Source: Aphelocoma coerulescens
Taxonomy: Eukaryota > Chordata > Aves > Passeriformes > Corvidae
Direction of reading: 5' to 3'
Length of the DNA stretch: 64,000 bases
Assembly: GCF_041296385.1 (NCBI RefSeq)
Contig: NW_027184085.1
Location: forward strand, 10,225,301 to 10,289,300
Part shown: in pieces, positions 95 through 48,771 of the stretch
Layout: each line of letters begins with the position of its first letter
Numbering within the stretch: position 1 is the first letter of the stretch
Position numbers and translations under genes: made by a program
The notes under the pieces: model-generated
Database searches by the model: none
What the model was told of the DNA's origin: nothing
What the model saw: the letters and a program-made list of their open reading frames with translations, nothing else

Positions 95-197
95 ATGGCT
101 CTGCAATGGATGTTTCTCCTGCTCCTCACACCTCTGCAGGCTGCACAAAATAATGGTAAACCGTATCCCAGAAATCGTGGAAAACCCCAGGAAAGAG
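95..197 (+). CDS. Gene A exon 1: signal peptide
   Basis: The ATG at 95 has a good context (A at -3, G at +4). It opens a hydrophobic leader (MALQWMFLLLLTPLQAA) followed by a short basic stretch, and the exon ends at a GTAAGA donor in phase 1, the phase all the CCP exons need. The 35 bases before the ATG resemble those before the start codons of B1 and B2 (a shared 'ctgcc(c/t)gggga'-like stretch), which supports this as the paralogous first exon. The next exon is 7.4 kb away, so this link is the least certain join in the gene. Confidence 0.7.
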
Positions 198-3100
198 GTA
201 AGAAGTGCTCCCTCCTCTGCCCGCAAGACAAGGTTTTACTGTGCTCCTGCCACAGAGCTGTGGGGCGCCTTCATGGCTTGCAGGATACAGCATCTGTATC
301 AGAGAGGTCTGATGTCCACACTGGGGCCCCAGTCCACCAGCTGGGTTGTGGTTACGAGGAGCTCTGTTTGGGGATGGAGGGAAGCAAAGCTTGGGGTGCT
401 GGGAAAGTCTCTGCAGAGTCTGTAGTGTTCCTCCATGGAGATGGAAATACAAGATGTCCATCTGTCCTTGCACAGTGTGAGGGTGCCTAGTCCTCACCAC
501 AGAGGAGATGGGCGCTAGTGCCCAAAAGAGACCTGGGGAGCCATGAGCTGAGCCACTGCGTGCCCAGGAGAGCCTGGGGGCAGGAGTTATAATATTCTGG
601 GATTGCACTTTAATGGGCTTCCTTGGCACTGGAAGGGTCAGGGTATCCCCAGGGTTCCTCTGGGCTCTTCCTACATTGGCTGCACACTTTGATGCCAGCA
701 GAGTCAGTGGGAATTTGCAGGCTCACTGACTGCACTGTGTTATCTGCCCTCCCAGGAGGCTGCACTGTCCGGCAGTTGAGCTGTGGGTCCAGGGACTGTG
801 ACCTTGCATTAGTCTGTATCTGTCTGAATTGGAGTATTTCTCTAAACTAATTTTCTTGGAGCTAGATGATAAAAATCATTAAACTAGCATCTAATCATGT
901 CATCCTGGTCCACTGCAGTGTTGTGTCTGGGTGGATGCAGGCTAGAGAAAACAGCTGATCTAGTGGCTGTGACAGAGTACAGGGAGTGGGATCAGAAACT
1001 TTAATTGCTGATGTGAAGTGGCATTAGGGTCTGTACTGTGTGAGAGGCGTCACGGGAGCCCATTTCCAGGGAAAATGTGACCGTGTGGTTGCAGACAGTG
1101 GAAGCACAGCACACTGTCACGCAAAAAACAAGGGCTAAAACGGCAACAGAGGATATTCTCCTGCCCAGAGCATCTTCCTGCTCCCCAGATCCCTGATGAA
1201 GCTGTTCTCCCAGGCCCACATGTGCAACCATGTCACGTTGTGTGGCTTTCCTGTTTGTTTTCAAGGTGCACACTAAGACCAGGATCTGTCTGTGTTGTGT
1301 ACAGTGGGATGCAACAGGGGCCTGTAGGCCTGCAGACCCTTGTCACACTCTGCAGATCTCAATCACCCAGCCATCCCCAGAGGAGTCTGAGGCTGCCTGT
1401 GGCAGAGAGGATATTGCTGAGTTTGCACCTTGGTGTTTGTGAAAAGAGGAACCAAGACAAAAACATGTGGTGGCTGCGCCCAGCAGCGTGAGCAGCCCTG
1501 CCTGCATCCTCAGCACGTGTGCTCATCCCATCCTGGCACCATGCTGATGTCCCACCTGATGGATCAGGGTCCTTCTCTTGCAGAAGAGCAGGGCAAGAAA
1601 GATGGCTGGAGTGAGGCAGGAGGGTCCCTCCCATCCCTGCTAGGGTGGAATGGGCTGACAGTGGCAGTGGGGCAGGGTAAAGCTGTAGGACAGAGAGAGG
1701 GAACAATAGGGTGGGACCCCTGATTATATCCCATGTCCCTGGCAGATACAGGGTACAACCCATTGTGCATGGTGCCACAGAGAACAGTGCAGAGAAGAGC
1801 AGCCCAGCCACAGGCACAGGATGTGGTTGTTACGTGCGGTTGGCATGGCTGCTCTGCTCACCCCGTCACGGGGACACTGTACACCGAGCAGGGTGCATTG
1901 TGTCATTATCCTATTGTCACCTTATTGCCTTGCTGTGCTGCTCCTCTCACAGGGTGTTTTTCCTCCCTGAAATGCCGTACCTGCACAAAACTCTCCTCCC
2001 TTTACAGTCCCAGTGCACCTGAAGGCAGGTGGAGAAGCTTCTAGGGCATGTTTTCTGTGCAAATGCACGGTCTGTAATCCAAGCTGGCCCTGACCCCTTT
2101 TTCATCAGCCTTGCTTGACACTGTGTAGTGATCTAGTGGCAGCTGACAAGAAGTTCTAAGGAGGAGCACAGCTGCCGTGACTGGGGGGTGGGAGGGTGGT
2201 AGTTAAAACTAAGCCACACCCAATCTGAAAGTTTTTGTGGCAGTCAAATTCCAAACTGTGCCTGAGCAGATCCTGTGGGGAACATGAATGCTAAGAGGTA
2301 CTGCACAAGAGTGCCTTAGGCTTGACACCCTAGGGGTGGTGAACTGTGTGCTCCACCACGCTTCCACTTCCCATCATCAGAGCACAGATTCAGGAAACAT
2401 GGATTTTGCCTCCCATTCTTAGACATCTCTCAGATGTCTTTAGCATCTGGTGGACTGCTACAGGTTAGCCTGCCTCTGTTTCTCAGCTCCTCCCACAATG
2501 CCTTATTCAGTGACCTGCTTTGCCACCCCCTTTCCCTGCCATGACTCCCAGGCAGAGCATCCCCAAGGTCTCTCTGAGGCTCCTTTTCCATCACTCTTGA
2601 AGACCAACTCAGCAGCTTTGGTTGCTAGTGAGTACAGGGATGCTCTCAGACCCATGTTTGTGTTCTCAGTACCCTGCAATAAACTCTCCACTGACAGAAA
2701 GAGTGACTGCTTTTCTTAGCTCCTCTCAGCAAGCACAGGGCATCAAACACAGCAAGACTGCAGCGCACTTTGCTGTCACCTCTCTCAGCTGCTGAGCTGC
2801 CCTGCCAAAAGGGTTGAACTTTGCCTACTGCTTCTTAGGTTTCACCTTGTCCTTTATTCTTTGTGTGTGAGATAATATAATGTAAGAAAGGACACCTTCT
2901 GCTGGTAAGCAAAGGGCTGAACCCAGGAGCCTGACCTGAATTATCAGCATAGCTATTTCTCTTTTCTCCTGATCCTCCCCTTCTGGCCCATGCTGGGGCT
3001 TTGTTTAGCCTGCCAGGCTCAGAACTCCTTGCAGCAGGGGCAGGAAGTCCAGATATTTCTGTAAAAGGCTTTCTATATTCATAGGTAATAAACAATATGA

Positions 3101-6100
3101 GCAAGGAGGGTATTCATTCAATAACATCAACCAGGAAAAATACCAAAACAGTAAATATCTGCCTTTTGGAGGCAAATAGACCAACCTTTTGTCACCACTC
3201 CTGTCTTGGGCATTCAGCATTTCCCATTTCACAGTGAGCACACATTGCACGTTACAAAAGGTGCCTATTTGGTCACATCTACACCATATTTTCCTTGCTG
3301 AAATTTCACTTGACTCAGCCTCCTTCCTCTAGCTGGGGCAGAGAGCCTGTGGGCGGCTCTCTGCATACCACTGTGCAGAGTGGTATAAAAAACAGTGTCT
3401 GAGGACTGTTCCGTTACTCTCCCAGTTGCTGTTAATCCCTACAAGGCTGAGTGTTTCTTTCCCATTGCTGTCTGAGCACTCTCCGTTCTCCATCCGTGCA
3501 CCGGCTCCCCACATACATCCCGCTGCTTTGTACAAGTGGTGAGCTCCATCTCTCCAGTGGAGGTCCCTTAACAGCTTCCCATGGATATCTCCAAAGCACT
3601 CAGTCACCCTGGGTTAGAGCACAGGCTCCTTTCCTTCAAGGTGCCCTTTCCCCGTGGCAATTCTTATGGAAAGGAGTGTAAGGAGGGTGAGGACAGAGGT
3701 GTCCCTCCCGGCCTGTGCATCTTGACTGCACCCAGCAGTCATGGATTAGTTTCTTCCAATGAGCCTCAAGTGCTAGTCACATGCCTGATAGGCTTGGACT
3801 TACTGGAGATGTGAGGCCAAGTTGGATTGTAATCAGCAATGTTCTTGAGGTAAATCAGGCATGGACTGAAAGTGTCTTCTCTTCCCCATTCTGCAGGGAA
3901 GCAGAGCTTTCTAGGCTTTACCCTCAAACAATCACCAGAAACGCCACCAGGAGGGACTCTGAGCAGCTGTAGATGCCTGGATGCAGATGGTGTCAGTGCT
4001 ATGACAGGGGGTTCAGCTCCCCTGCAGCCGCAGGAATGTGGGCAGGAGGGAAGCCCTGGAGGAGCTGTGATGTTTGGGCACTGCTGGCAGGGTGCTCTGT
4101 GTGCAGGAGGTAAATAGGCTTTGGCAGTCCCTCAGGCTTCCCTGCTGGGGTACACTACCCCTCTGCAAGGCAAGCAAGCTTGTTTTGTCATGCCCATCCC
4201 TCTGTCAGACTGGGTTAATTCCTAGAGTGGTTTCTGATGCTGGTGCATTCCCCTGTAGTGGTACTCTCCAGTCACTGGCTTCTTTGAGTATGGGAATGAG
4301 CTGTGGGTTCTGCCTGCCTTTTCTATCTCTCCCACCCACCCCTTGGGCTCTGCTCAGCACAGTCCATACCCAGCTTGGGTCTGGGTGCTGTATCAGCCTC
4401 TGTCTGCCCCATACCTGAGCACAACAGGGGCACACCTGGCAGGTCAAAGGGCACAGGGGAGCCCATGGGGAATTTAAAAAGTCGGGCCAGATTATCACCT
4501 CCATTCTCAAATTCAGAGAGATGCTCTAAGACCCATGTTTGTGTTCTCAGTGGCTTGCAGTGCAACTCTCCAATGCAACTGGAAAAACAGTGGTTTTCTC
4601 TGTGGAAACAGTGGTTGCTTTTCTTAGCTCCTCTCAGCAAGCACATGGCACCAAACACAGCTCAGGGAGCTTGGGAAGGAAACAATGAGTCGCAGAGGAC
4701 AGGAATGCCCCTGGTGCTTGCAAGGGGCCCTGTAGGCAGAGGAAGAGCAAGGAGGGAGCAAGAAGGTTTGCCTGCAGGACTGCTCTCCCGTGTAGTCTTT
4801 GTGTCCGAAGGGCAGATGTGGCCACTGACACACTGCTGGCACACGTGTCGTCTTTGCAGAAGCGCGCTCCACGTGTCTACCCTTGCCTGAGGCTGCACTG
4901 GAAACCACGCTGCATCCCATCAGAATCCCACCATTCCAGCTCAGAAGACACTGACAGGAATACTGAGGAAACCCTGGAGCAAGTCTGCACCTCTGTGGAG
5001 GCCTTCTCACCTGAAACAAAGACAACAGAGAAGAGGCTGATGTTCCTGGCAAAGGATTAAGTCTGATAAGTAGCCAGGTCTAAGAAGAATGATTCACTGG
5101 AGTCCTGGTGAAGGTGGATAGGCTAGTCAGAAAAGTGTGGCTGTTATGCCAGCTCAATTAATGCAATCCCTTTATACCTGCTTCCAGCCCAGGAGTCTTA
5201 CACAGCACCTATTTTCTTGTGCCCATAACCAAGGGAAAGTAACCCAAGTTGCAGGGGGCAAAAGCAGGGACTGCCAGAATGAAGACCAGCCTGTGGTAGG
5301 AAAACACCAGGTTTGAGACCATCTGAGGTACCTGAAGGTGGGACCTGATGAGATGCGTATGTGAGATCTGATGAGATGCATGTGTGGGTCCTGAGGGTGG
5401 GGGAAGAGGCAAAGACACTATCCACCATATTTGAGAAGCTGTAGCAGGGAACTTCCAGTAAAGGTCCCACTGACTGTAAAAGGAGAAGCACAACCCCCTT
5501 TTTAAAAAAGGGAAATGAGGGAGACCCAGGGAACTACAGGCCAGTCAGTCTCCCTTTGGTGCCTGACAAGATCATGGAGCAGTTCCTGCTGGAAACTTTT
5601 CTAAGGCACATGGAAATGATTGGTGATGACTTCACAAAGAGCAAATCATATCTGAGAAATTTGTTGGTCTTCTATGGTGGAGTGACAGCATTGGTGGAAA
5701 AGGGAGGAGTGACTGATCCACCTGGACCTGTGCAAGGCATTTGACACGGTCCTGCATGACATCCTTGTCTCCAAACTGTGAAGGTGTGGGTTTGATGGAT
5801 GAACCATGACGTGGGGGAGGAGTTAGCTGGATGGTCACACTCAAAGTGTTGCAGTCAGTATATTGATGTCCACTGGCACAGGTTGCCCAGAGAAGCTGGG
5901 GATGCCCCATCCCTGGAAGCGTTCAAGGCCAGACTGGATAGGGCTTTGGACAACCTGGTGTAGTGGAAAGTGTCCCTGTGCATGGCAGGGGGGCTGGAAC
6001 TAAATGATCTTCCTTGGGAACCTTCCAGCCTAAGCCATTCTATGCTTTTATGAAAGACTGAATAAGTCCTAAGTGCCTGTAAACGATAATTAGCATAATG

Positions 6101-9100
6101 CTAAGTATGCCTAATTTCCGTTGTGCCGAAGTTGCACTTTTTAGTAAAAGAAAAAAATTTAAACTTTAAACAAAGACTAGCTCTCATTTGTGCTACAGTA
6201 AGTCTGCACTGTACTGCACCTCTAAAGCAGCAACTATGAGATGTAGCTTTTTCAAACACAGAGTTACCCCTGGCCTTTCCAAGGAAGCACGGTAAGTCTA
6301 GAGAGGTTCATTCACAGTTGTTCTAGCAGTAAGAGCTTTGCTGTATGAAAAGACTCAGGGAGAGCTGGAAGCAAGGCAAAGCTCTGCTGTGCAGCTGCAA
6401 TCACCCTTGCCAGCAGAGCATCCGTGTTTGTGCAAAGACGCTGCCCCAGATACCTCGTGAAATCTGCATCTGTGCCAGCAGAGTACCTGCAGAGGAGAGT
6501 TTCTCTTTTCCTCCTGGTTTCCTGCCTGGCAGGTTGCCGTGAGTGGTGCTGCCAGTGGGGTTTGTGTGCTGTGGGGACTCTCACAGCTACCAGGCAGTGT
6601 GGAACAGTTACAAAAGGAAAAACGATGAGGACCCCTTGCACTGAAGTCAAGAGTGGGGCAATATGGGAGAGGCCAGCCATGCTTGTGAGCACTCACAGCC
6701 CCCTCAGTTCCTAAGGCTGCCTCCACTGGCGAGTTTCCATCCCCTCAAATTGCTTCTTGTTTCAGGCCAGGCCCCATACGACTCTTTTCAAGCAACAATT
6801 GTTCACATTTCTGTGGTGACTCTAGGATTTGTATGATGGACGAACACTCACAGAGAGTTATATTTCTTATTATGTGAAAAGTGGGATCTAATCAGACAGT
6901 AGAGACCCAAATTAGGGCAATACAGAGAGCCAGCAGCACTCCTGTCTAGAAGTTAATGAAAATTAATATGAAGATTTACTTCAATCAATTGCCCAATCTA
7001 CATGCTGCAAACCACAACCAAATGTGCAGCCGTTGAAATACCTACGTGCAGTCCCTGTCGAGCCCCTTCTGCCAGCTCAGATGAGGGGCTGTGGCTCGTC
7101 TTGGGTGAGGATGGGAGGGATATGGGACAGGTGGCAGCTGCTCCTAGGAGCCAGCAGATATTTTGTGAGAGGGACGAAGAAGAGGAAGTAACAAGTGAAA
7201 CATCCAGACCAAAAGCAAAGTGGCAACTTGAGTGGGATTTTGCTGCAAACAAGTGTGCACGTGGGTGTGAGCAGATCGTGTCCAGCATGAATGACAGGAA
7301 TGCAGATGAGTAGTGCAGCAGAGGGTCTGGTGCACTCCCACAGCATCTGTGTTTGTGGGAAAGAGCAGCATCCCCCAGGCTGCTGGATCCCTCTGGCTGG
7401 GGTGTCTCTACAGCAGAGGGTGGCCAGCCGGGCCTGTGGATAACCCTCCTGCACTGCCCCTGAGGGTGTGAGGAGGGTAAAGCACCTGGGGGCTGGGGCT
7501 CATCCTGGGAGATGCTGTCTCTGCCACCCCTCTGAAGAGAGGGAGAGAGACTGGCACCCCTCTGGATGGAACACCCTCACCCTGAAGACGCTGCCGGAGC
7601 CCAGTGACCCTCAGGCTCTCCCTCCTGGCCTTTGCACACAGGAAGATGTTCAGCTCCCTCTGGCTGGGACCCCAAATTGCAGTTTAAACCGAGGAGGAGC
7701 AGCTATGCCTTGAACGAAGTGGTGCAGCTCAGCTGTGCTGGGGAATCTGTGCTATCCATCCCATGGATCCAATGCATTCTGTGGAATGACACTGCCACCT
7801 GCAAATGTAAGCACAGGCCTGCACCACCCTGACCCAGGGTCCTGAGCTGGTGACAGACCCTCCGTAACCTGGTCATGCATGTGACAGTGCAGGAATGGCA
7901 GGCCTGGATGCCTTGGCTTTCCCCCATGTCCTGGCAGTGATGATGCTCTTTTTGTCTCAGCACCTTGCTGTGGGCACCTGCCAGGGTCTGTGCTCCTGGA
8001 AGGGGTTCAAAGGCAGGAACAAGGGGCCTGCACTGGGGCCTGGCGCACGCCGCTGTGACTGGGAAAGGAACAGCGCTGCGCCTCCCTGAGAGTCTGCCGT
8101 AGGTCTGGAAACCTCTGGGGTTCCAACCTACAGTTAAAGATCCTCAGAAGGGGCTGTCAGGCCACCATGCACATGCTCACTATCCCCAGAGCGATGCTGA
8201 GCAGGATCACAAGCGACTGAATCACCAGCGTACTGACTGAAGGCAAAGAGATCGAAAGAAGTCTTCTGTATGGGTTATGAAGATGTTCCAGGGACAAAAG
8301 ATGTTAAGGGAGGGTCCAAGGGTTTTATAGGGATACAGCCCACCAATCAGGTTTGGGCAAAGGGGAGGTGAGAGTACAAACTGGCTAATCGGGGAAGGCG
8401 GGAGGGAGCAGGGAGAGAGGGACCAATGGGATATCGAAGGGTGAAGAACTTTCTAGGACATATACATATTCAACAGGGTGATACAAGGACATATACATAA
8501 AATGAGGCAGGGAAACGATAATTGACAGTTTACATAACAGGACAAGGGACTGTGGATGCTCATTATCACCTTGTGAGAGGGTTTAGACTTCCGAGACAGC
8601 CCACCAGGAATTCAGGGCTGCATTCTGTCCCTGCGGCTTACTTGCCACTTGAGAGGCAGCGGCAACCACTGCCACAGGGGCCTACTGTATGTCCTGTGCC
8701 TTCAGACAATGACTGGGCATATGGCCAAGGTGGTGAGAGGGGAAGGAACTCTTTGCAAAGGCTGGAGAGGAATTCAGTCCTTGCTCAGCCTTATCCAAAT
8801 GGAGCCTGAGTGGGGAAGCCTACAAGTCTGTAGTAGGCATGGATGGAACTGCTCATGGATGGTGCCTGCTGCCACCAATAACTCTGTTCTAGGCTGCAAG
8901 AGAGGGATTTGGAGTTGAATGTGGTAACCAAAGGAGATGGACCCTGTCAAAACCACATCAAGAGATATCCCAGCAGACCTCCTCCCATCCTGCTTACATG
9001 TGCTCCTCCTCCTCTTCTCTATGCAGAGATATGCCAGCAGCCCCACTGGGACTCACAGCTCCAGTTTAGCCCAGACCAGAGTTTTTACTGGGTCGGTGAA

Positions 9101-12100
9101 GAGGTGACAGTGAGCTGCTTTATGAACAACACTCCTTCCCTGTATGTGATCAGATGTGCAAACAAGATTTTTCCAAGTTGGAAGGATGTTTGGGAGGTGA
9201 AGATTTTGGGATCATGGCAGAGGTTGGCAGAGGACCTGACCTGCACTACAGGTATGTTGGGGACCAGTAGGTCTCCCCTGCTACGTGCACTTCTCACTGC
9301 GGATGGGACCTGAACATGCCGCTGTATCTGTGAGACACCTTGGGCACAGCTCAGAGTCAGGTCCCAGCTGGGAGCAGTCTCCACAATGGAGAGGGTTAGA
9401 AGCCTTCAGTGTGGGACAGGTTTTCTCTGTCCCTGCATCTCCTCCCAATCTGTTCCTGACCTATATGTCATGGGAAAGTTGGAGTGGGACAGATCCTGCC
9501 CCGCAGTTCACCTCTCTCCCAGTGGCCTGTATCACCTCCTTGCCCAGGCACGTGCTCTTTTTCTGCTCTTGGGGGCCCTTGGGTTTCCTCATGGTGTTGA
9601 ATACTGACATTAACCACAGTCAGTCATGGAAAAGCCTTGGTCCCTCTCCTGCCTGAGCACTGCCTGTCTGAGAAGGACTCTCACATTTTCTCCCGGACAG
9701 AAAAATGCTCAAAACCTCAGGGGAATGAAAGACTTCAGTTTTCAGAAGATGAAAGTGAATACCCACAGAAGAGAGAACTGACACTGACCTGTCCTGAAGG
9801 TTTTGAGCTTTCCTTCCCTGAGGTCAAATGTACAAAGGAACTTCAGGTAATGAGTGATGGAAGAACAGTCTATGGAGATGTCTGGTGGGGCAGGAATGGC
9901 ACAGGTGCCTGGACACGCATTGAGGAGGATGTGCTGTGTATGGGTAAGTGAGGCTGCAGCAGCTCTCCTTTGTCTCCCCTCTACCTTCACCCGCCTTGGG
10001 GCTGTGGTGCCTGTGAAAACCGCTGAAGAGGACAACCCAGCCAGGAGACAACAGCTGGGAAAGCTGAAAGCTCCTGCAGTGGCTCTTGAGCAGGCCAAGT
10101 CTGGGGCTCCCAGCTGGGTGCCCGGGCCTGGAGCAGGATCCAAGGCTGCCACCAGGTGCCCATGAAGGTTCCATTACCTTTACTGTGCCCCCAGGTGCCA
10201 CCCTCAAGTACAAAGGTCTGCTTGTTCCCCTGCTGGCCCACGGATAAGGGACCTGGGGGACATCTCCTGCACTTGCAGGAGCTGGAGCAGAGGGGAATGA
10301 AGGGAGCCCTGATGGAGCAGGGCTGACTCAGCCCTTGGCATTGGGACAGGAGGCTGTATGGGAAGGTTCTGGAGGAGGAGCAATGCCATCCATCAGGGGA
10401 TGGGGATGCAGAGCTGTCCCATGCAGGAACAGAACTGTGCTCGCTGTGGGCCTGGCAGTGCTCAGGAGAGATGGGCAGGGAGAGACAACATGGGAACATC
10501 CCTGCTTTGGGCTGTGGTAGGTGGATAGAACTAACGACAGACAGAAGTGGATGGATAGGGGAAGGTTCATAGATGAGTGATCCTTCACAATTTCCATGCA
10601 CAAAGAAAGCCCCTCCCCAACAAATTTTGCCTGCAGGTCACATCCCAGCAGATGGATGTGTCACCTTCCCTCCCCCTTTGTTGGCTGAAGGAGTTGCTGG
10701 GGATTTGTCTCCCACCACCCACCCATACCCCATCTCATCACCTCCAGCCCAAATAATACCCACTTTCACCTCTGCCAGAAATGTGCCAAAGGCCCCCGTG
10801 GGACTCCACACTCCAGCTGGCACCAGACAAGAAGCATTACGGGAAGGATGAGAAAGTGATGCTGAGTTGTCCTGAAGGTTTCCAGCCATCCTTCCCTGAA
10901 ATCAAATGTCAATTCCAGCACTACGAATATGACCAACCTGTATACACACCCTCTTGGCTTGGAAGAGACTCCAGTGATTCCTGGGTCCCCATTCAGTCCC
11001 ATGTGGAGTGCATCGGTAAGGGAGGGATCAGAAGCAGGCTAGTCCCTTGCAGTGGGAGATCCTGTGAACGTGTCTGAGGGGGGATAGCATGGGAAGGTCA
11101 GGGTTTTTCCTTGGGCCCAATGTTGTGAGGCTGGTGGCTGTGAAAGCACCTCCTGCTTCCAGGAAGAAATTCACCCAAAGATTCACATGCCGTTTCCTAG
11201 TGCACCTTGATCCCAAACTCCTCCTGATCGCCTTCAAGGGATCTGCAGTGACCACCTCCAGTCTCTCACTTTCCATCCAAGCAGGCTGGCGGTGGCAGGG
11301 GGACAATGCTGCTGATTGTGGTGCTCAGCTGGGCATCTCTGGTCTCCTGCCATCAGGGCTGTTTGAGAGCAAAGCCTGAGCACAAGTGGCTTGTCACCAG
11401 CATTTCCCTTTGTGGCTGTTCAGAGGTTGATCCGAACCTTGTGAGATCCCTTGCCTGCCCCTTTGGGAGAAGGAAGATTGTATTTTAAGCCCTTTCAGGC
11501 CTCACAAAGCTTTTTGCAGAAGCTTGAACAGGCAAGAGCTCCTTCCAGGAGCCAGTGTTCTTGTCTGTAACAATCACAGCCACAAAGCCTCCCCCTGCAG
11601 CACTGGACAAACTGCTGGGACCAGCTGTGCCTACTCAGCCTGGAGGATGGTGGATTTGGTGAGAAGGAAGGGTTGTGTCAGGAGAAAGGGGCAGGGGCAT
11701 TGGTAAAGCAGGAGATGTGAATGGAGAAGGCACTGCTCACCCCCCTGTCCCACTACCCAGCGGTGTGGGGCAGGAGGAGAGCGGCCAAGGGACTGAGTGA
11801 GAACAGGGAGCCCAGAAGTGTCACAGGGGCATGGCTGATCCCTGTGGGAGGGATGAGCCATGGCTGAAGGGACATGCATCCCAGCAGGAGGGGTGGTGCC
11901 ACGGCCCAGCAAGTGCCAGCTGAGCTGCGCTGGGCAACAGGCCTGAATGAGAGGTTGGAGGGTGTCTCCTGGTGCAGAGGTGATTGTCCTGGGCATCTCC
12001 CTGCTGTGGGCTGTGGAGAAGGGAATATGGTGCCCTGGACACAAGGGTGAATGGGGAAGGTTCATAGATGAGTGATCCTTCACAATTTCCATGCACAAAG

Positions 12101-30431: not shown

Positions 30432-30659
30432 TTAGTTATCCTCCTTAGTTTTGTTGGGCAAATACTTCCTTTTCCTGGAAAGGCAAAGGGGAGTCCTGGG
30501 TAAGAGACTGGCATTGTGTATGTCCCTGCAGAACCTGTCCGATTCCTACTCACCTGGAGAGCACAAGCCACAGGATGACTGCAGCCACAAGGAGGACTGC
30601 CAAAAGCACGACCAGTCCAATCACAATCCCGTGCCACGAGCCTGCAGTCTGCTCTGCAA
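30432..30659 (-). CDS. B2 exons 9-10: transmembrane helix and truncated tail
   Basis: Exon 9 (30659-30554) gives a long aliphatic helix (GIVIGLVVLLAVLLVAAVILW), related to B1's, not A's. Exon 10 (30474-30432) gives KRKYLPNKTKEDN and TAA. Aligned with B1, the stop falls exactly on B1's Tyr codon (TAC to TAA); the splice donor beyond it (GTAGGA) is still present. Confidence 0.87.
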
Positions 30660-36600: not shown

Positions 36601-36646
36601 ATGCAAGGGCCAGGAGAAACCTCAAAGCCAGCGACTGCTGGGACAT
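30432..36646 (-). CDS. Gene B2: short-tailed CCP/FN3 receptor sharing gene A's ectodomain
   Basis: Complete 489-residue type I membrane protein. Exons, in coding order: 36646-36538, 35065-34823, 34088-33798, 33414-33317, 32006-31814, 31679-31568, 31442-31208, 30973-30934, 30659-30554, 30474-30432; 1,470 nt, phases all close. Order: signal peptide (1-36), one CCP (37-117), FN3 x2, membrane-proximal module to about 440, TM (about 447-475), tail RKRKYLPNKTKEDN then stop. The ectodomain exons lie in the right arm of the inverted repeat and match gene A at every residue except five in the CCP. There is no phosphatase domain and no Tyr motif other than one in KYLP. The role is inferred: decoy, or ligand-sharing partner of A. 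Confidence 0.88.
30934..32006 (-). CDS. B2 exons 5-8: FN3 module 2 (second half) and membrane-proximal module
   Basis: Exons 32006-31814, 31679-31568, 31442-31208 and 30973-30934 mirror gene A exons 10-13 with identical predicted residues and intact splice sites. They carry the membrane-proximal module of the PTPRK/M/T/U type, which is odd in a protein with no phosphatase and suggests that B2's ectodomain came from a phosphatase gene. Confidence 0.85.
33317..34088 (-). CDS. B2 exons 3-4: FN3 module 1 and first half of FN3 module 2
   Basis: Exons 34088-33798 and 33414-33317 are the mirror of gene A exons 8-9. The protein is identical, while the intron between them differs from gene A's at scattered bases. 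Confidence 0.85.
34823..35065 (-). CDS. B2 exon 2: single CCP module
   Basis: 81 codons, phase 1-1, counterpart of gene A's CCP6. It differs by F/Y, R/K, R/Q, S/F and F/V plus one synonymous base. This is the only CCP in B2; the 1.47-kb intron upstream shows no other CCP exon. Confidence 0.85.
36538..36646 (-). CDS. B2 exon 1: signal peptide
   Basis: ATG at 36646; leader MSQQSLALRFLLALASLLSA, cleavage probably near AHG-QEE, ending in phase 1 at GTAAGA. The 5' flank is paralogous to B1's. Confidence 0.82.
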
Positions 36647-36781: not shown

Positions 36782-36791
36782 CTTCCTCTTT
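36782..36791 (-). promoter_or_regulatory. PU.1/Ets-like site upstream of B2
   Basis: Minus-strand AAAGAGGAAG, 136-145 bases before the B2 ATG. B1 has the same ten bases at almost the same distance. AAAGAGGAAG is close to the classical PU.1 (SPI1) consensus, which would point to myeloid or B-cell expression. No TATA box is evident. Confidence 0.45.
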
Positions 36792-38199: not shown

Positions 38200-38710
38200 T
38201 GTACTAGTTTGAAAAAAAAACAGTGGGAGGCACCAAGTCAGAATAACAATTTAATAGGGTAATTTAAAAAAAGGCAGAAAACACTGGCTCAAACTGACAG
38301 AGTCAGGATACAACCTGACACCCTGTTAGTCAGGGTTGCAGTAGCAGTCCGATAAGATGGTGGCTGCAGTCCTCCTGAAGTGGTGGATGTGGTTCTGTTG
38401 AAGCAGTGATCCTGTAGAAGGGTCTGCTCTTCCTTGGAAGGTCCAGTGGTGGCTGTGTAGCTCCTGTCCTCTGGGAATCCAGTGGAAAAGGTGTCTGTGG
38501 TGTTCGGAATCTCAGATTATATCCAGGATGGAATGCTTGGTTCCTCCTTCTGCGTGGAGCATCTCACAATGGGATGATGAGTCATGAGGCAAGGCATTGA
38601 TGGGCTCATTAACAAAAAGATAGTCCAGAGGGAGGAGGAAAGGAAACACTGCCCCATCTAGTTTCAACAGCTCATGAGGACGGTAAAAGAATACACTGCA
38701 ACCCAGGACA
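38200..38710 (-). mobile_element. Solo LTR of an endogenous retrovirus (ERVL-like)
   Basis: A 511-bp block starting TGTACTAG and ending CAGGACA (TG...CA ends), flanked by the 5-base direct repeat GCTGT at 38195-38199 and 38711-38715. The minus strand has ATTAAA near its 3' end, so that is the probable sense strand. No internal retroviral genes remain. A 5-bp duplication fits ERVL-type integration. Confidence 0.8.
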
Positions 38711-39746: not shown

Positions 39747-40481
39747 TCACTGCTCTGACTCTCCTGAGAACACCAGAACAGGCAGGGGCTTGCGAAATGC
39801 CTCTCCAGCCTGGCCATATTTACCTGAGGAGATCAAAAGAACCTGGGGCAGAGGCTGCTGCATGCCCTTGGCAGCACGAGGAGCTCAGACACACCATCAC
39901 AGCTGCCTGTTCCCACTCTCTCTGTGACATGTGGGGTCACAGGCAGGACAACCCATTTCCTACCTGCATCTTTCTCTGCCAGAAAAGTCTTCATCACACA
40001 GTAATTATCCTCACGTGCATTCTCATAGGGCTGGAGCTCTGGGGGGGACAAGAGGACAGAAACAGCCTGAGGGACCCCAGGGCTGTGGGAGAAGGAGCAG
40101 GGCAGCCCCAGGCAGGATGCAGATCATCCTGGGATGCACACCATCAGCACAGCAGGGCTGGGAAGAGCTGCTGCCTACCCCAGAGAGGGTGAGAAGGAAG
40201 AGCAGTTCCCAACCCTCACTGGCACCTCGGAGAGACCCCAGCCAGAAGCTGCTGGAAGAGGCCACTGAGCAGGGTCTCAGCTGGGAATAGATGTGGGACA
40301 CACTGCTCTGACAGATCAGCCAAAGCCAGCTGGGCTGCCTGCAGGCACCTCAGAATGGCAACGGGCCCTCCTGAAATACACTTGCTCCCCTCCCAGCTCT
40401 AGCCCTGCAGTCCCCTCTGTGCTGGGGACCCTACCTGTGTAATGATCCTCCTCGACTTTGCTGGGCAAGGCCTTCTTTTTT
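39747..40481 (-). CDS. B1 exons 9-11: cytoplasmic tail with spaced tyrosines
   Basis: Exon 9 (40481-40435) gives KKKALPSKVEEDHYT; exon 10 (40038-39964) gives ELQPYENAREDNYCVM and on to KDA; exon 11 (39823-39747) gives a 24-residue end and TGA. Exon 11 starts unusually with GTAAA right after the acceptor, but B2 keeps the same boundary. The order YTEL-x2-YENA-x4-YCVM resembles SH2-binding clusters; spacing does not fit a strict ITAM. Confidence 0.72.
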
Positions 40482-43400
40482 CTGGGAAGGCAAAGGGCAG
40501 TCCTGAGTGAGTGAGAGTGGGCCAGACCCTGCTGAACCCAGCAGCAGTGTGTGGCATGGAGGTTTCTGCACACCCTCCCTCTGCCCTGGCAGGCATTGCC
40601 CACCCACACCTCAGGGGACATCAGCGGTGGCTGCAACAGCAACAAGGGGAGAGGGTCTCTTAGCACACAGGGCCCCTGTCCCAGCCCTGAGCCCCAGGGC
40701 TTAGAGCCCCAGCCAGAAGCCCTAGAAGCAAATTGTGGTAGGACCAGCCAGCTGCATCCTCTGCACCCAGAGAAGGGTGGGAGCAGCTGGGGAGCCCTCT
40801 CCATTCCCACTCACCCCACGGCACAGCACGGCCTGAGGCAAAGCTGAGACTGCTAATCTCCTGCCACTCACCTGGACAGCATGAACCAGAGGATCCCTGC
40901 AGACAAGGGGATCAACACCACCACCACCACCACTACTGTGACTGCTGAGCCAGGCCAAGGGCCCAGAGGCTGCCCTGCAACTAAAACACAGAGAGGAGTG
41001 GGTGCCACAGCCAAGGCCATGTCCCAGCAGTGGCCCCAGCCTTGGTGCTGGGTGTCTCCATATGTGTAGCCATGCACATCCAGGCCCTGCTGCCCTGGCT
41101 GCTGCAGGGACAGCCAGTGAGACAGCATCTTCCCCTGCCTGCACATCTGCTTGGGTAGGGCAGAGGGAGGCTCTGGAGCACAGGGCCTTGTCCCATGTTC
41201 CCAGCTGGAGGGTCTGGCAGCCTGCTCAGCCATCCTGCACACAGCAGGAGGACACAGACCCAGGCTCAGCAGCCCTAGGGCTCTCTGACCTTGAGCCAAA
41301 TGCACTCAAATGCAGGGATGGGTGTCACCTTCTTCAGTGGAAGAGGGGGCAGGTCTGCTATCAAAGGCACACACAGTGGCTGAAGCAGCACAGCTCCTCT
41401 GGGGACCTGGCAATGCAAGCCCTCGAGGCAGGACTCAGCCAGCCCCATCCCCATTGCTGAGACAGGTGCCCACACTTCTGCCCCTGTTTGAGCTGGGACA
41501 GGGTGGTTGCACACACAGGAAGCTGCTCCAGGCTCAGCACTCACCCCTAAGAAGCCACCCCCACCAGACCCAGGGCAGAACAACCATTACCCAGGACGTA
41601 GGTTTGGAATTCCAGCTGTGATGCAGCCCCAGCCCCAGCTGCTGTGAGGCCCTGCACTGTCACCAGGTATTTGCTGCCAGCTGTCTGACGAGGTGGCACG
41701 TACTCGGAGACAGACTGGTTCACCAACACCTGACTGAATTCGAGGAAGCTGCCATCCTCTGCTCTCATGGTGGTGATGTTCAGCTGGAGGAAGGACAGGG
41801 AGCTGCTAGACAGTAGCACCAACATCCTGCTTCTGCACTGGGCAGCTCTGTGAAGAGGGGCTGTGACTGCTGGCTGGGGACAGGAGGGGACCGGGCCCTA
41901 CCAGGAACACCAGCAGTGTACAGCCTGTGGGCCCCAGCCAAGGAGGGCTCACACCTCTCCTCAGGGTGCCTGCACAGAGCTCCAGGCAGGGAGATGCCTG
42001 GAAAGGTGAGGGCATTCCATGGACCCCTGGTACCTGGTATCCGATGATCTCCCCTTTGCAGGAGGGCAGCGCCTTCCATCTGAGGGACCCTGTGCTGGGA
42101 TCCAGCCGCAGCTCCTCCGGTTTGTCTGGCACTGGAAGCACAGGAGAACAGGATCATGCATGGATAGCAAGTATTTGTCCCCCACAAAGGCTGCTGTCCC
42201 CCACAGCAGCAATGGTGTGGTGAGGAGGGGGAAAGTGAAGTGTGCAGGCCCCTGCACAGCCCCTTCCCCAGATCCCCACAGGCAGCAAGCAGCTCTGATC
42301 CCAGGAACATCACAGAAGGGAGCAGATGTCCTGGCTGAGCTTCAGGGTGAAGAGCATCTTGACATTTCATGTAAACATACCCATTTCCTTTGTCCTGAGG
42401 AGCCGTGTGTACAGGATTGTGCTAGGCAGCAGGGAGATTGTGACACTGTAGACAGTGAAGGGCTGCAGAGGGGAGCAGGTGAAAGTTCCCTCCTGGCCTT
42501 GTAACATCTCCTCTCCCTTCACCTCCTCACCCTCACAGTTTGAGGAGGAACGCTGCTCCAGCCGGCACCTGGCCCGAATATGCTGGCACATGTCAGGGAG
42601 CATGCAGGTCCAGTTCAGTTTGATGCTGGTGCTGGAAATCTTCAGGGTCTCAGGGACAACCTGGAGGACATCTGTGAAGGGAGCATTCCGAGAGGATCAC
42701 TCCCTCCCTTCCCCTCCAAGCCTTGACACCAAACTCCATCAACCTCACCATTCCCTCACTAGCCTGTCCCCAGCACAGAGCAGACAAGGACGTTCTGCCT
42801 TCTCCCAGACTACACATGCCAGAGTTGCCAACAGCACAGACACAAACCTCGGATGCATCCAGAATTTTCTCTGGATTTCTCTGCCATGCCCTGACCACCC
42901 CAAGCACAGGGCACTGATGCTGTGGCACACATGCAGAACTGCTCTCCAAGCCTGGGGAGCACACACTGAGAGCACTGGGAGGGTGTCTGGCTTGCTAACT
43001 TACCCACACAGGTCAAGTTCTCCTCCATAGTGTGCCAGTTGTCTGTGCCATTCCTCACTATCCACCCACTACGAGGAATCATGGAACGTTCCTTTGGCTT
43101 CAACGTCACGCATTTGATCTCCATGGGTGGAGGCCAGTGCCCCTCAGGGCACCTCATCTTCACCACTTCATTTGGGTTGAAGGTCCCCTGTTCTTGGTCA
43201 AAGATAAACTTGGGGTCCCACTGGGGCTTCCGGCATTTCTCTGCACCAACAAGATGGGAAGGTATTAGCTGGGCAGAGCATGGCTCCACAGGGCATGCCA
43301 GGGGATGGAGCAGGGCATCCCCTTCCCTGGCCCATCAGGGCAAGGGATGGAGCTCCAGGACACTGCACAGAGCAGCCCTTCCACATCAATTCTTGGCAAG

Positions 43401-46400
43401 AGGATGAGGACATGGACTTCAAACTTCTTCCCCCAGACCTCCTGGGAAAGGCCAGAAGGAGCTGGAGTCAGGGACTGAGGGGAACCCATGAAGGGTTTGT
43501 ACTGTGCACAAAGCCTGCCCAGAGACTCTGGTGCCCTGTTTGTCCCTCAGGCAGGACAACAACACCCTGACTCCTCCTGAGAAGGCATAAAGCCTGAGCC
43601 CCAAAGCTGGCTCCACAGTGACAGCATGCAGCAGGGACAGGGAGGGGAGACTGGCACATGAGGAGGGGTCAGGCCTTTACCCTTCTTGTGTGGGCTGAGG
43701 GTGAAGGATCTGGAGCACAAGTCTGATAAGGAACAGCTGAGGGAGCTGGAGAAAAGGCGGCTCAGGCAGATCCTATTGCTGGAAGTGAAGGTTGGTCTCT
43801 TCTCCCAGGTAACAAGTGATAGGAGAAGAGGAAACCATTTCAGGTTGTGTCAGGGTGGTTTAGATTGGATATTAGAAAAAAATCCATTAGTGAAAGGATT
43901 CCCAAGCACTGGAACAGGCTGCCAGGGAAGTGGTGGAGTCACCATCCCTGGAGGTATTAAAAAGACACGTAGATGTGGCACTTAGAGATGACATGGTAGA
44001 GTTTGTTGATGGTTGGACTTGATGATCTTAGAGGTGTTTTCTAACCTAAACAATTCTATGATTTTGTGACACAGGGAGCAGAGTTCTGCGATCCCCGAGA
44101 CCCTGGCACAAGGCTTCTTGTCACCTGTGCCATAAACACCTGTCAGACCTACAACACTGTAGCCCTGACTTCTCTGCACATGTTCTTACCAGAAGCCCTT
44201 AGGGAGACCTGTGTCTCCCACATACCTCCCAGCTCTCTGTGAATGCAGCCTGGAGCCTTGCATGGACCCTGACCTCTTGTGCCATGGGCAGCATTGGTTA
44301 CAGCCAAAATGGCTACTTTGGTATCAAGCTAGGGACCTTTGTACCAAAACTTTCTCCTGCTAGGACCTTCAGGGACTAAAGCTGGCATCAGCCTTCTCCC
44401 CACCAGGGCATCCCTGGAACCCCAGGGCAGGCACAGGGCAGACTCAGGAGCTGCCTCGACACTGCCTTCAGCAGCATTTGCAATTTTCCCAGGCAGCACA
44501 GAGCCAGAAACCTCCTGTGCCCCCACAGCCTGCCTTCCCTGCTCAGGAAGGGTAGAATAGGGCAGTTAGGAAAGCTCCTGAGGCCTCCTTGCCAAGGCAT
44601 TGTGCCCTGAACTTGGGCTGAATGTCTGATCCAACTGCCTCTGCTGTCCCTTTCATTCCAAGCTTCTCTGTATACAGGTTTTCCATCGATAACAGACAGA
44701 ACGTTTCCTGTATGTTTGATGTGGCTGAAGGGTGGCTGGAAACCCCTGGGACAGCTCAGCATCACTTCTTTATTCTTCTCATAACTCTCCTGGTCTGGTG
44801 CCAGCTGGAGTCTTTGGCTCCAGTGGGGTTTTTGGCATGTTTCTGGCAGAGGTGAAAGTGGAGGTTAGTTGGGCTGGGAGGTTTCAAGGAGGAGCAGGGT
44901 ATGTGGCAGGGTGTCAGCAATCCCAAGCAGTCCCTCTAGCCCCAGAAGGGAGAGGGAAGGTGACACATCCATCTGCTAGATGGGACTCCTTGGCAAGGCT
45001 GGTTGGGATGGGGCTTTCCTTGTGGGTGAGTGTCCGCTGGGGCTGGGGCCTGTCCAGGCTGGTGGTGGACAAGGTTGTGCCAGAATTCAGTAGAGGAATG
45101 GTCTCAGGTATCAAAAGCGCTGAGATCCAAGTGGTGCTGAGATCCGAGTGGCCCTGACATGACATCAGAATTGCATCCCTGGCCACAGTGATGGTGGAAG
45201 CTCAGAGATGGATGAACGGGGCAGAATTTGACCACAGAGCTCAGTAGGAAGCACTTCCTGACACCTGCTTACCAAGGCACACTATGTTCCCCTGAAGCTG
45301 AATCCACACGTCACTGCTCTTTCTCCCCAGCCACAAATCTCCCTTTAGAGATCCAGAATAATTCAATAGCTGAACCCTGTTTGCACATTTGACATGGGTG
45401 AAAGATGGCTGGAAACCATTGTTGCAGCTCAGAGTCACTTCTTCATTCTCTGTGTAACTGTCACGGGCTGGTGTCAGCTGGAGCCTGGGGTCCCACCAAG
45501 CAGGCCTTTGGCATGTTTCTGTCAGAGGCAAAACTGGGTGAGGAGAACTTCTGAGAGGTTATGAGAGGAGGGTTGGGACAGGTCTCTCATGAGACCTGTT
45601 CACCCCAACAGATATGAGTGTCATATGCCCAGGCACTGTCCAAGGGCACAGGGCTCCTCATCACTCCATCTCCAGGACTCACAAGCCTCCCGTGGATTCC
45701 ACCCCCTCCATGGCGTGTTTGAGCCCCCATTTCCTTGTCTCCCTCATGCACAGGTGAGCCATGCAGCAGCAACAGCCTCCCACACCAGAGACAACCCAAA
45801 CCCTAGAGAAGCTTTCCAGGCAAACAAGCAGAACCCCTGCAGCTATTCCTACTCAAAGCTGAGGCAGGAGATGCTGGCTGGGAAGGATTCCTCTCCCCAG
45901 GAGCACAGACCCTGGCAGGTGCCCACAGCAAGGTGCTGAGACAAAAAGAGCATCATCACTGCCAGGACATGGGGGAAAGCCAAGGCATCCAGGCCTGCCA
46001 TTCCTGCACTGTCACGTGCATGACCAGGTCACGGAGGGTCTGTCACCAGCTCAGGACCCTGGGTCAGGGTGGTGCAGGCCTGTGCTTACCTTTGCAGGTG
46101 GCAGTGTCATTCCACAGAATCCGGGTCCCTCTGGAAATGCATTGGATCCGTGGGACGGATGGCACAGATTCCCCAGCACAGCTGAGCTGCACCACTTCGT
46201 TCAAGGCATAGCTGCTCCTCCTCGGTTTAAACTGCAATTTGGGGTCCCAGCCAGAGGGAGCTGAACATCTTCCTGTGTGCAAAGGCCAGGAGGGAGAGCC
46301 TGAGGGTCACTGGGCTCTGGCAGCATCTTCGGGGTGAGGGTGTTCCATCCAGAGGGGTGCCAGTCTCTCTCCCTCTCTTCGGAGGGGTGGCAGAGACAGC

Positions 46401-48771
46401 ACCTCCCAGGATGAGCCCCAGCCCCCAGGTGCTTTACCCTCCTCACACCCTCAGGGGCAGTGCAGGAGGGTTATCCACAGGCCCTGCTGGCCACCCTCTG
46501 CTGTAGAGACACCCCAGCCAGAGGGATCCAGCAGCCTGGGGGATGCTGCTCTTTCCCACAAACACAGATGCTGTGGGAGTGCACCAGACCCAGGGAGTCT
46601 CTGCTGCTATTCCAGACTCCACAGCTAGGTCCCATGAAGTGACTGCCAGCAGCAGTGGTGAATAACAGGAGCAAAGTTGCAGGTAACAAGAGAAAGAACA
46701 AAACAATTCTGCAGTGGAGCATTAACTACAGTAATGACACCGACTGAAAATGAATTGACTAAGTCCCTGAAAGGGGAAAAAAAAATAACACCCTTCTCAT
46801 CCAGGATGTTTACCTGTGACCTAATAAACACTCAGTTTTGATAAGTTTTGTTACATTATTCATCACCCTAGTGATGAATCCTTGCTCTTAATAGTAGTAA
46901 AAAATGCACGTTCTCTGTTCATTCGCCTCCTTCTCTCAAAAAGACCACCATTCACCTAGCGTGTACCATAATTTCTTGGAACACTGTGCTTTTACAGTGA
47001 AGAGGGGAAAGGATGAGTCATAGTAACGCATGCAAGCAGTGACTTCAGTAAGATATACTAATAGCCAAAGATTGTGTCTGTGTAACTATACCTGCTTTTG
47101 TCTGCCTCGGTGTGCTGGCTGCATGGATTTGCGACCTAGCACACCTTTCTGTACAGAACTGTAAATAAATCAAATACTTTGACTCTGTGTGTTAATCAGC
47201 TTTTTCCACACTGGGTGAAAGAAGGTTTCAACTTGAGTCTGCCCCTCAGACCACCTACATTCACACCAGTGGCCACAAAGTTCACACCCTGCCCAAGTGC
47301 TCAGCCTAGCCTCTGCACTTCACCCAAAATGAGTCTGCCTTGTCATGCCTGGCAGACATGTCACCTAGACTTGCTCACTCAGTACAAAATAAGTCCATGA
47401 GGAGGCACTGGGCGTGGAGGTGGCCTTCCCTGAATGAGGATGAAACACCTCTCTTCAGCTGCAGCTGCCCACTTCCTGCCAGCCAGCACTCACCACTTCC
47501 CTTGTCTGGTAGCAGGTTTCCATGCCATCATCTCAACCCTCTTCCCAGCTCTCCACCCCAAAGGACAGTTGTCACCAGCCCCATCATTTAGACCACATGG
47601 TGCAGACATGAAACTTCTTCCCCCTCAGCTGTGTCTCTCCCAGTGCCTTCAGAGCACACACTTCACTGTGACAGACAAACTATCCGACAGACATGAAACC
47701 CTTGACTTGTTCCCAGCCTCGTTAGGCACCCCCCTCACACACCTTCCCCCCTCCTGCCATTACACACCCTGAAGTAACACACACCCTGCCCAAGGGTTAA
47801 CATCCAGGATTCTTTTGGGTCAGTCCCAGTCATGAGTACAGACTAGGAGAGAAGAGGCTCCATCCTGCCCGGGATAGCTGAGAGCTGCCCATTGCTGGAA
47901 GGGCAGCATCCCTTCAGCCACCAGTGATGGGCAGCATGACTCATGACCCATCTGATGATTTGGCTAGCCACTTCTGGTCCCATTTCCCTACAGAGGGAAT
48001 GACTCACAGCTCCTAGTCCCCTAGTCGTGCTCTGCCCCATGGGGACTTCAACACAGCACACAATCACCATAGGAAAGCCCACATTTTTGTAGGAAGAGCC
48101 CAGCAGAGACCCAGGAGCTGCCCCTAACCCTCCTGGTATGGAGAAAGAACAGAACGAGCCTTTTGATATGAGCAATCACACTAATCTACAGTTCCCTCAA
48201 CCCCAGGGACTATGGGAGAGAGCAGGCATCCCAGCTAACAGAGCTCACAGCTCCCCACCTCTTTGATGAGCACAATTATCACCTTCCCCTGTGACAGGGG
48301 TGCTGCTTGGACTGCCCAGAAAGGCTGTCACTGCTCTGATTACCCCGGATTCATCTGTCTGCTGCATAACAAGAGCCAGCCACCTCCTGCTCCCAGTGAC
48401 ACTACCCACTTCTTAGAAGGACGCTGCAACTCTCATGCTCATGGAACTTTCCCAGCACGCCAAGGCTTGCTGCCCTCCATTCCAGATAGAGCTTTGCCCC
48501 ACCACAACCTGAAGGATGCCTGAGTGTCCCAGGCTGATGCAGACACCAGCTTCAGCCCTCCCATAGCCTCAGCTATAGGCTGAGCAGGGTAGGGCCATGT
48601 AGCAAAGAGAGGAGGCAGCAAAACCATTTTTGTAAGAGAGAGGCACAATCTGCCCTTACCTGCTTCAGTATGTACCCACGGAGTCATAGGACTGTGGTGC
48701 ATCTGTTCCCGTGCAAGCAGCAGAGGAGCAAGGACCAGGAGGAATGTCTGAGCCAGCGCTGGCAGGGCCAT
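39747..48771 (-). CDS. Gene B1: CCP/FN3 receptor with tyrosine-motif tail
   Basis: Complete 555-residue type I membrane protein. Exons, in coding order: 48771-48660, 46272-46090, 45518-45273, 43240-43004, 42671-42381, 42131-42034, 41783-41591, 40980-40872, 40481-40435, 40038-39964, 39823-39747; 1,668 nt, phases all close. Order: signal peptide exon (1-37), CCP x3 (38-259), FN3 x2 (260-453), TM (about 465-489), tail of about 65 residues. It has no membrane-proximal module and no phosphatase. The tail holds Y504 (YTEL), Y510 (YENA) and Y518 (YCVM), possible SH2 docking sites. A fourth CCP exon at 44842 is decayed and left out of this model. Function inferred: signalling receptor of the same family as A and B2. 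Confidence 0.85.
40872..40980 (-). CDS. B1 exon 8: transmembrane helix with a polyvaline run
   Basis: After VAGQPLGPWPG comes SAVTVVVVVVVLIPLSAGILWFMLSR. Seven consecutive valines are encoded by a (GTG)n microsatellite (plus-strand CAC repeats at about 40917-40935), so helix length could vary between alleles. Confidence 0.82.
41591..42671 (-). CDS. B1 exons 5-7: two FN3 modules
   Basis: Exons 42671-42381, 42131-42034 and 41783-41591. Module 1 keeps IKLNWTC, EGTFTCSPLQPFTVYSVTIS and extra cysteines; module 2 keeps VPDKPEELRLDP and CKGEIIGYQ almost unchanged from A. The following exon is the TM exon: the A/B2 linker exons are absent. Confidence 0.85.
43004..43240 (-). CDS. B1 exon 4: CCP module
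   Basis: 79 codons, phase 1-1: KCRKPQWD, MRCPEGHWPP, EIKC, NGTDNW, LTC. Acceptor 'ttggtgcag', donor GTAAGT. The start (KCxKPQ) parallels gene A's CCP3. Confidence 0.83.
43685..44075 (+). mobile_element. CR1 LINE 3' fragment in a B1 intron
   Basis: 'gaacagctgagggagctggag' followed by 'gaacaggctgccagggaagtggtggagtcacc' and 'gatcttagaggtgttttctaacctaaacaattctatgattttgtga': the standard CR1 3' end, antisense to B1, between the decayed CCP exon and the next good CCP exon. Confidence 0.88.
44600..44842 (-). pseudogene. Decayed CCP exon in B1
   Basis: The reading frame (TCQKPHWSQRLQLAPDQ...) stays open and similar to A's CCP6, but Cys3 has become His (IKH), the last Cys has become Gly (VQG), and the GT donor is gone. 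Flanking intron sequence is still paralogous to that after gene A's CCP6. Skipping it leaves the B1 frame intact. Confidence 0.75.
45273..45518 (-). CDS. B1 exon 3: CCP module
   Basis: 82 codons, phase 1-1: TCQRPAWWDPRLQL, TLSCNNGFQPSFTHVKC, VW, IVC. Acceptor 'cctctgacag', donor GTAAGC. All four cysteines are present. Confidence 0.84.
46090..46272 (-). CDS. B1 exon 2: CCP-like module 1
   Basis: 61 codons, phase 1-1; the same module as gene A exon 2, with six extra codons (ISRGTR) after Cys3. Acceptor 'tttgcacacag' and donor GTAAGC match the A copy. Confidence 0.83.
46830..47190 (+). mobile_element. Possible LTR-like segment in B1 intron 1
   Basis: A stretch absent from the paralogous gene A intron, ending '...ctgtacagaactgtaaataaatcaaatactttgactctgtgtg', with AATAAA and a TG-rich tail like the R region of an LTR. 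Borders and target duplication were not found. The rest of this 2.4-kb intron shows nothing I recognise. Confidence 0.25.
48660..48771 (-). CDS. B1 exon 1: signal peptide
   Basis: ATG at 48771; leader MALPALAQTFLLVLAPLLLA then a short stretch ending HTEAG in phase 1 at GTAAGG. The flank before the ATG matches B2's ('tcctgcc(c/t)ggggacttca'). Confidence 0.82.

Follow-up and report, generated by a model that had tools for sequence, protein, structure and literature searches.

A candidate paired-receptor-like gene trio of birds with a built-in phosphatase and a phosphatase-less twin

We analysed a stretch of 64,000 nucleotides from the jay Aphelocoma coerulescens (contig NW_027184085.1, positions 10,225,301 to 10,289,300; hereafter the window), which contains three complete spliceable genes, A, B2 and B1, with GT-AG boundaries at all modelled introns (Table 1). 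By sequence, the cytoplasmic ends of their products are a phosphatase in A, a tail resembling an immunoreceptor tyrosine-based activation motif (ITAM) in B1, and a stump in B2. The stalks of A and B2 are nearly identical, and comparisons among birds, ranging from ostrich to jay, indicate that gene conversion drives their concerted evolution. With modest confidence, we interpret the three genes as a paired-receptor-like trio of birds with a built-in phosphatase, in which B2 would be the phosphatase-less twin of A.

Results

A and B2 share a stalk but not their cytoplasmic ends

Genes A (plus strand) and B2 (minus strand) are convergent, and B1 lies upstream of B2 on the same strand. These gene models uphold an earlier note on this DNA, which had described three intact genes with CCP and FN3 modules. 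A encodes a signal peptide, five CCPs, two FN3 domains, a membrane-proximal (MP) domain, a transmembrane (TM) segment and two protein tyrosine phosphatase (PTP) domains, D1 and D2. From the last CCP of A up to the membrane, only five residues, each of them within that CCP, distinguish A from B2. The earlier note had counted the same five differences but called the CCP concerned the sixth; the domain is real but is the fifth coding CCP, the first CCP-like exon being unusable. Six coding CCPs are ruled out for A by the stop at the junction of this exon (7642-7806), which is missing from the Cyanocitta cristata database model (P0001) and included in a Prinia model (P0045).

The two genes carry the arms of an inverted repeat, which differ at 36 positions, 29 of them intronic and 7 exonic. 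Differences number 29 over 3999 bases of introns, 6 over the 243 bases of the CCP exon (five of which change a residue), and 1, which is silent, over the 969 bases of the FN3 and MP exons.

Relatives were collected through three protein searches (with A, B1 and B2), whose best 120 hits each amount to 326 proteins together. For A, the best 120 of 1971 hits are from birds, turtles, lizards, amphibians and sturgeon, and none of the named A-type proteins among them is mammalian; their database names include RPTP kappa-, T-, U- and F-like, and others. Among the matches listed, B1- and B2-type proteins occur in many birds, including ostrich, emu, rhea, kiwi, tinamou, chicken and ducks; most of these entries are called 'uncharacterized', and all the named ones are from birds. 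From the 326 proteins and the three models of the window, we hand-picked rows for trees (58 for the FN3 domains and 45 for the MP domain), favouring species with several of the genes. Thirteen rows are B1, of which nine have the ELQPYEN signature of B1 tails, those of Accipiter, Apteryx and Phaenicophaeus have variant tails, and that of Tyto has its tail exon in another frame.

In all 17 hand-picked species compared, A and B2 of the same species are 0.88-1.00 identical over the FN3 domains and 0.95-1.00 over the MP domain. Between species, the identity of A averages 0.71 both for FN3 (0.60-0.98) and for MP (0.57-0.99), the top values being those of close relatives. The A and B2 labels need 21 changes on the 45-row tree, and grouping all B2 rows in one clade is rejected (log-likelihood 2650 lower; approximately unbiased test, p 1.55e-54; quick tree under LG+G4, with three groups of identical rows unconstrained). 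Over the TM segment and tail the pattern is reversed: identity is 0.63 between B2 proteins of different species and 0.68 between A proteins, versus 0.34 between A and B2 of the same species. The arrangement and the separate tails persist from ostrich to jay. As the ends of B2 are orthologous, a fresh duplication in each lineage is excluded, and gene conversion accounts for the pattern.

The likeness of A and B2 could also be an artefact, B2 being an inverted copy made by the assembly (a possibility raised in the earlier note) or A and B2 being isoforms mixed up by annotation. The repeat arms are indeed 99.3% identical, and three species (Apteryx, Vidua and the jay) show no difference between A and B2 in the shared columns that were kept. 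However, the jay B2 has its own opposite-strand exons and unique ends, B2-type proteins are found in many birds, and other birds show differences of up to 12% between the FN3 domains of A and those of B2 (Gavia, 0.88). In addition, four of the 75 listed models with ELQPYEN (from crane, antbird, bamboo partridge and scaled quail) continue into B2-type exons, so that B1 adjoining B2 recurs elsewhere; a search for the same order in other birds had been proposed earlier, and the B1-B2 adjacency is the part of it seen in these database models. We regard an artefact as highly improbable, and an assembly-made copy is ruled out by the bird relatives, the separate exons and the divergence of A and B2 elsewhere.

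Three cytoplasmic ends

Gene A fits the class of receptor protein tyrosine phosphatases (RPTPs), with a single TM segment, PTP domains and a D1 carrying HCX5R. Its product is 96.2% identical, without gaps, to the C. cristata model. A Pfam scan, run on a slightly earlier gene model, returned two Y_phosphatase stretches (5.3e-139), fn3 (2.4e-7) and Sushi (6.7e-6), and a scan of one raw plus-strand frame returned no families. The tandem phosphatase domains reported earlier are thus confirmed by Pfam, D1 being intact and D2 degenerate. The motif HCSAG[IVA]GRTG is present in 105 of the 107 proteins chosen by their D1 signature, and D1 of A is probably active and would dephosphorylate its neighbours as RPTPs do.

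The product of B1 is 98.2% identical to a Corvus database model (P0121). Its tail reads EEDHYTELQPYENLDNYCVI in many birds and combines an acidic run, YTEL, YEN and YC[VM][IVM] with ITAM-like spacing (D/ExxYxxL-x8 or x10-Yxx[IVM]). ELQPYEN is present in 75 of the 326 listed proteins, 67 of which have Y[TI]EL across ELQPYEN; the presence of YEN in 75 of 75 B1-type tails is built into this search key, which a few B1-type variant tails escape. We used as strict form the ITAM consensus D/ExxYxxI/L-x6-8-YxxI/L, as given in the parts of PMC7026191 drawn on here, and as relaxed form a spacing of x6-12 with L, I, V or M as last residue. The strict form fits 34 of the 75 proteins and the relaxed form 68. 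No immunoreceptor tyrosine-based inhibitory motif (ITIM) was found in the tested stretch of the 75 tails, which rules out an ITIM reading. The tyrosine-motif tail attributed to B1 in the earlier note can thus be sharpened to ITAM-like spacing plus YEN, free of ITIMs.

The product of B2 is 100% identical to an A. coerulescens database model (P0234), and the gene model agrees with the 13-residue tail seen earlier. Exactly 13 residues follow the TM segment in 53 of the 88 listed B2-type models (proteins with the MP signature and with neither the PTP signature nor ELQPYEN), and three have 6 more; among the other 32, 12 reach no further than the TM segment and the rest are truncated or continue into different sequence. 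The stump aligns with the start of the B1 tail and ends just before the first tyrosine of B1, and no known signalling motif was seen in its 13 residues. The AlphaFold model of B2 is of moderate quality (predicted local distance difference test 66.9, predicted template-modelling score 0.42). Foldseek with this model retrieved mostly FN3 proteins; the 50 listed rows have query-based template-modelling scores of 0.16-0.27, which shows an FN3 fold only.

A chicken (Gallus gallus) relative of B2 (P0291) carries the name 'sushi domain containing 1 precursor', and Pfam lists only fn3 in it. Human SUSD1 has EGF and Sushi domains, and the chicken protein is probably not its counterpart. A 'precursor' name without an isoform tag suggests that a complementary DNA lies behind this record.

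B1 has an ectodomain of its own

In the jay, the FN3 domains of B1 are 64% identical to those of A, the CCPs of B1 are its own, and a search for the MP domain in the B1 model found none. Across 10 species, A-B1 identity over the FN3 domains is 0.59-0.85, and B1 forms a separate branch with one exception, the Phaenicophaeus B1, whose FN3 domains group with cuckoo A and B2 rows. A single ectodomain common to the three genes is therefore ruled out by the divergence of B1 and its apparent lack of an MP domain. The earlier view of one ectodomain with three outputs survives for A and B2, with their near-identical ectodomains, different ends and RPTP partner, and fails for the ectodomain of B1. Likewise, the case for B1 binding the ligand of A is weaker than that for sharing between A and B2, given FN3 identities of 59-85%, different CCPs and no MP domain found.

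A segment of 695 bases is 95.7% identical between A (7323-7999, plus strand) and B1 (45897-46591, minus strand), the other DNA matches between the two genes being 70-83% identical. It covers the dead CCP exon of A and the live first CCP exon of B1, and marks a recent, separate exchange between these two genes.

Layout of the locus and its surroundings

Table 1. Coordinates of the three genes and their features in the window
Feature	Position	Strand	Description
Gene A, receptor tyrosine phosphatase	95..28256	+	30 exons, 1412 aa; based on exons, GT-AG, frame, Pfam and relatives
A exon 1	95..197	+	signal peptide; agrees with P0001
A dead CCP exon	7642..7806	+	inclusion gives TAG at junction; skipping keeps frame
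A coding CCP exons (five)	9027-9251, 9701-9943, 10779-11015, 12274-12510, 13769-14011	+	Sushi in Pfam
Inverted-repeat arm in A	12782..17992	+	last CCP, FN3s, MP, introns; stops before TM exon
A FN3 exons	14746-15036, 15420-15517, 16823-17015	+	fn3 in Pfam
A MP-domain exons	17150-17261, 17387-17621, 17856-17895	+	gene model
A transmembrane exon	18433..18538	+	gene model
A phosphatase D1	19352..24557	+	HCSAGIGRTG, WPDHG
A phosphatase D2, degenerate	24733..28256	+	VTCWDGASRSG; ends NFK-stop
Gene B2	30432..36646	-	10 exons, 489 aa; signal peptide, 1 CCP, 2 FN3, MP, TM, 13-residue tail KRKYLPNKTKEDN
Inverted-repeat arm in B2	30837..36053	-	99.3% identical to A arm
Gene B1	39747..48771	-	11 exons, 553 aa; signal peptide, 3 CCP, 2 FN3, TM, tyrosine tail
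B1 cytoplasmic exons	40481-40435, 40038-39964, 39823-39747	-	hold EEDHYTELQPYENAREDNYCVM, ITAM-like
B1 decayed CCP exon	44600..44842	-	excluded from gene model

The CCP exons and the first FN3 exon of A are phase 1-1 modules. Gene A also contains a 1.5-kb tandem duplication (10558-12530 and 12053-14031, plus strand, 96.5% identical), in which lie its third and fourth coding CCPs, identical at the protein level. One gene model of A lacked exon 17150-17261 and used a wrong splice site; it was dropped. A PDB search with the MP domain gave no match.

All 22 genomic matches listed for the ectodomain of A fall inside the window, indicating a small cluster on one chromosome. The contig carries three DM-domain genes within 0.1 Mb, in keeping with the DMRT cluster of the bird Z, and the trio is accordingly read as Z-linked. 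On the left, an SH3-domain gene, presumably RUSC1/2-like, comes to its end (L034, about 1800-1979), and on the right there is a kinase gene (L035), whose likely first exon, at 61559 (plus strand) in the window, resembles TESK1. A reverse-transcriptase-like relic, similar to a CR1 long interspersed element, is located at 5445-6047 (plus strand), with a 75% identical piece at 57262-57433 (plus strand).

Elsewhere in the genome, a single PTP catalytic exon (a 137-residue frame, presumably PTPN1/PTPN2-like) has about 40 near-identical matches listed across contigs (in assembly G000, for example C1:12815, C2:7224, C10:10148 and C39:11620), 18 of them, counted by eye, less than 70 kb from the start of a contig. 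Two of the loci (L006 and L008) have 1.7 kb in common at 98%. This scattered exon looks like a subtelomeric repeat with a captured phosphatase exon.

Discussion

How the trio might work

A fuller version of our interpretation, which we offer only tentatively, is the first paired-receptor system with an RPTP as inhibitory arm, a tailless twin whose FN3-MP stalk conversion has kept alike over the whole history of living birds and which could pair with A or shield it, and a linked ITAM-like receptor giving an erasable signal. The analysis shows the gene structures, their conservation, the concerted evolution and the motif content; catalysis by A, a ligand or heterodimer shared with B2, the direction of signalling and an immune setting are inferred. 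Recurrent gene conversion between the inverted copies would keep the stalks of A and B2 alike, the TM and cytoplasmic exons lying outside the tract. B2 could then hold the ligand of A, or pair with A in cis, and thereby set the amount of phosphatase arriving at a contact site. The ITAM-like tail of B1 (YTEL..YEN..YCVI) would send phosphotyrosine signals, which A would erase once both were brought together. Alternatively, the B2 stalk might anchor something. The decoy role suggested for B2 in the earlier note fits its short motif-less tail and the homogenisation of A and B2 in 17 of 17 species, and a cis partner fits them too. The MP domain is the best-kept shared part, which speaks for an A-B2 contact in cis, and the diverging CCP counts against the distal tip as a general shared site.

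Several observations weigh against this proposal. First, the near-identical tract takes in introns, so that homogenisation alone is no proof of selection for sharing. An inverted repeat on the Z might convert neutrally, with a tract that ends where homology ends, and A and B2 would then not have to share a ligand or be in contact. This passive explanation is in line with the near-identity of the introns (29 differences over 3999 bases) and with the conversion known in inverted clusters of CEACAM, Siglec and LILR genes, according to the parts of PMC2832619 used here. We nevertheless consider it unlikely, since the arrangement and the separate tails are kept from ostrich to jay and homogenisation is found in each of the species compared. 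In addition, the FN3 and MP exons differ less than the introns (Fisher test, p 0.020) and the CCP exon more (p 0.013), in tests that were picked after inspection of the tract and involve few changes.

Secondly, the CCP of B2 is not homogenised in 9 of the 13 readable species, where its best match among the CCPs of the A model from that species is 0.52-0.75 identical, against 0.90-1.00 in the other four; these values are lower bounds, as A models may miss CCP exons, and five further species were unreadable by pattern. In general, only the FN3-MP stalk is shared by A and B2, the CCP being mostly not homogenised. Thirdly, the tail of the jay B1 fits the relaxed ITAM and misses the strict one, with a spacing of 10 and a final M, and the hydrophobic TM runs of the jay B1 and B2, checked by eye, contain no Lys, Arg, Asp or Glu for adaptor pairing. 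Finally, nothing in the sequence of the locus marks an immune role.

The trio might instead be an adhesion set outside immunity, A sensing contact like FN3-bearing RPTPs, B2 acting as a dominant-negative in cis and B1 offering Grb2-type docking. D1 of A matches PTPRT and PTPRK best among single-D1 structures (272 and 270 bits, versus 232 for PTPRE), a turtle relative of A carries Fn3_PTPRU, the MP domain is the part kept most equal between A and B2, and YEN would suit such docking, though the search key contained it. Yet Pfam scans detect no MAM domain, the acidic-YTEL-x8-YCVI pattern is ITAM-like, and CCPs are common in immune receptors. An adhesion set therefore seems somewhat unlikely to us, and we retain the paired-receptor-like trio as the preferred interpretation.

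Comparison with known systems

The R2B RPTPs (PTPRK, PTPRM, PTPRT and PTPRU) resemble A not only in D1 but also in the Fn3_PTPRU domain, present in turtle, salamander and sturgeon relatives of A and not listed by Pfam for the jay A or B2. R2B members have N-terminal MAM and Ig domains, whereas A has CCPs, and Pfam detected no MAM in the jay A or in these three relatives, Ig_3 appearing in the turtle one only below the cut-off (17.2 versus 30). The absence of MAM rules out A as a true PTPRK, PTPRT or PTPRU. CD45 (PTPRC) likewise combines an FN3 ectodomain with an active D1 and a degenerate D2, is listed by Foldseek among many FN3 proteins for the B2 model, and presumably shares the NQNKNRY motif of A. 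It differs in that A has CCPs, and the phosphatase region scores 382 bits with CD45, against 424-456 for the tandem structures of PTPRS, PTPRE, PTPRF and PTPRA.

Among paired receptors, KIR, LILR, SIRP and CD94/NKG2 are similar to the trio in their clustered genes, conserved ectodomains and differing cytoplasmic parts, and LILRA3 even has no transmembrane region, according to the sections of a review used here (PMC3533184). By the definition given there, conserved ectodomains are found for A and B2, B1 reaching only 0.59-0.85 with A. These families differ from the trio in that inhibition runs via ITIMs and activation via a charged TM residue with an ITAM adaptor, neither of which was seen here. 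The passages of that review on 'tyrosine phosphatase', 'receptor-type' and 'CD45' name no RPTP member (PMC3533184).

Another parallel is offered by mammalian paired receptors of the CEACAM1/CEACAM3 type, with similar ectodomains kept by conversion, inverted clusters, an ITAM-like partner and decoys, as described in the portions of PMC2832619 and PMC7026191 consulted. Gene conversion and inverted clusters are likewise reported there for Siglec and LILR pairs (PMC2832619), so that the evolutionary device itself is already known. The working ITAM-like motif of CEACAM3 ends in methionine, as does that of the jay B1 (PMC7026191). In contrast to CEACAMs, the would-be inhibitory partner A has its own phosphatase rather than an ITIM, CCP and FN3 domains replace Ig domains, and the homogenised twin is the tailless B2, not the ITAM-like member, the A-B2 pair being homogenised in each bird compared. 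The earlier note knew of no paired system with an RPTP partner; none turned up in the literature searched, mostly outside subscription journals and partly in excerpts, nor did an account of this locus or of any RPTP that has a tailless twin in the genome.

The trio is widespread among birds, but databases label its members misleadingly as RPTP kappa-like, PTPRU, 'sushi domain containing 1' or uncharacterized. Known paired receptors borrow phosphatases via ITIMs; in this trio the enzyme would be part of one receptor, and a twin lacking it has been kept alike in every lineage compared. The control of an RPTP from outside becomes a testable question in this way.

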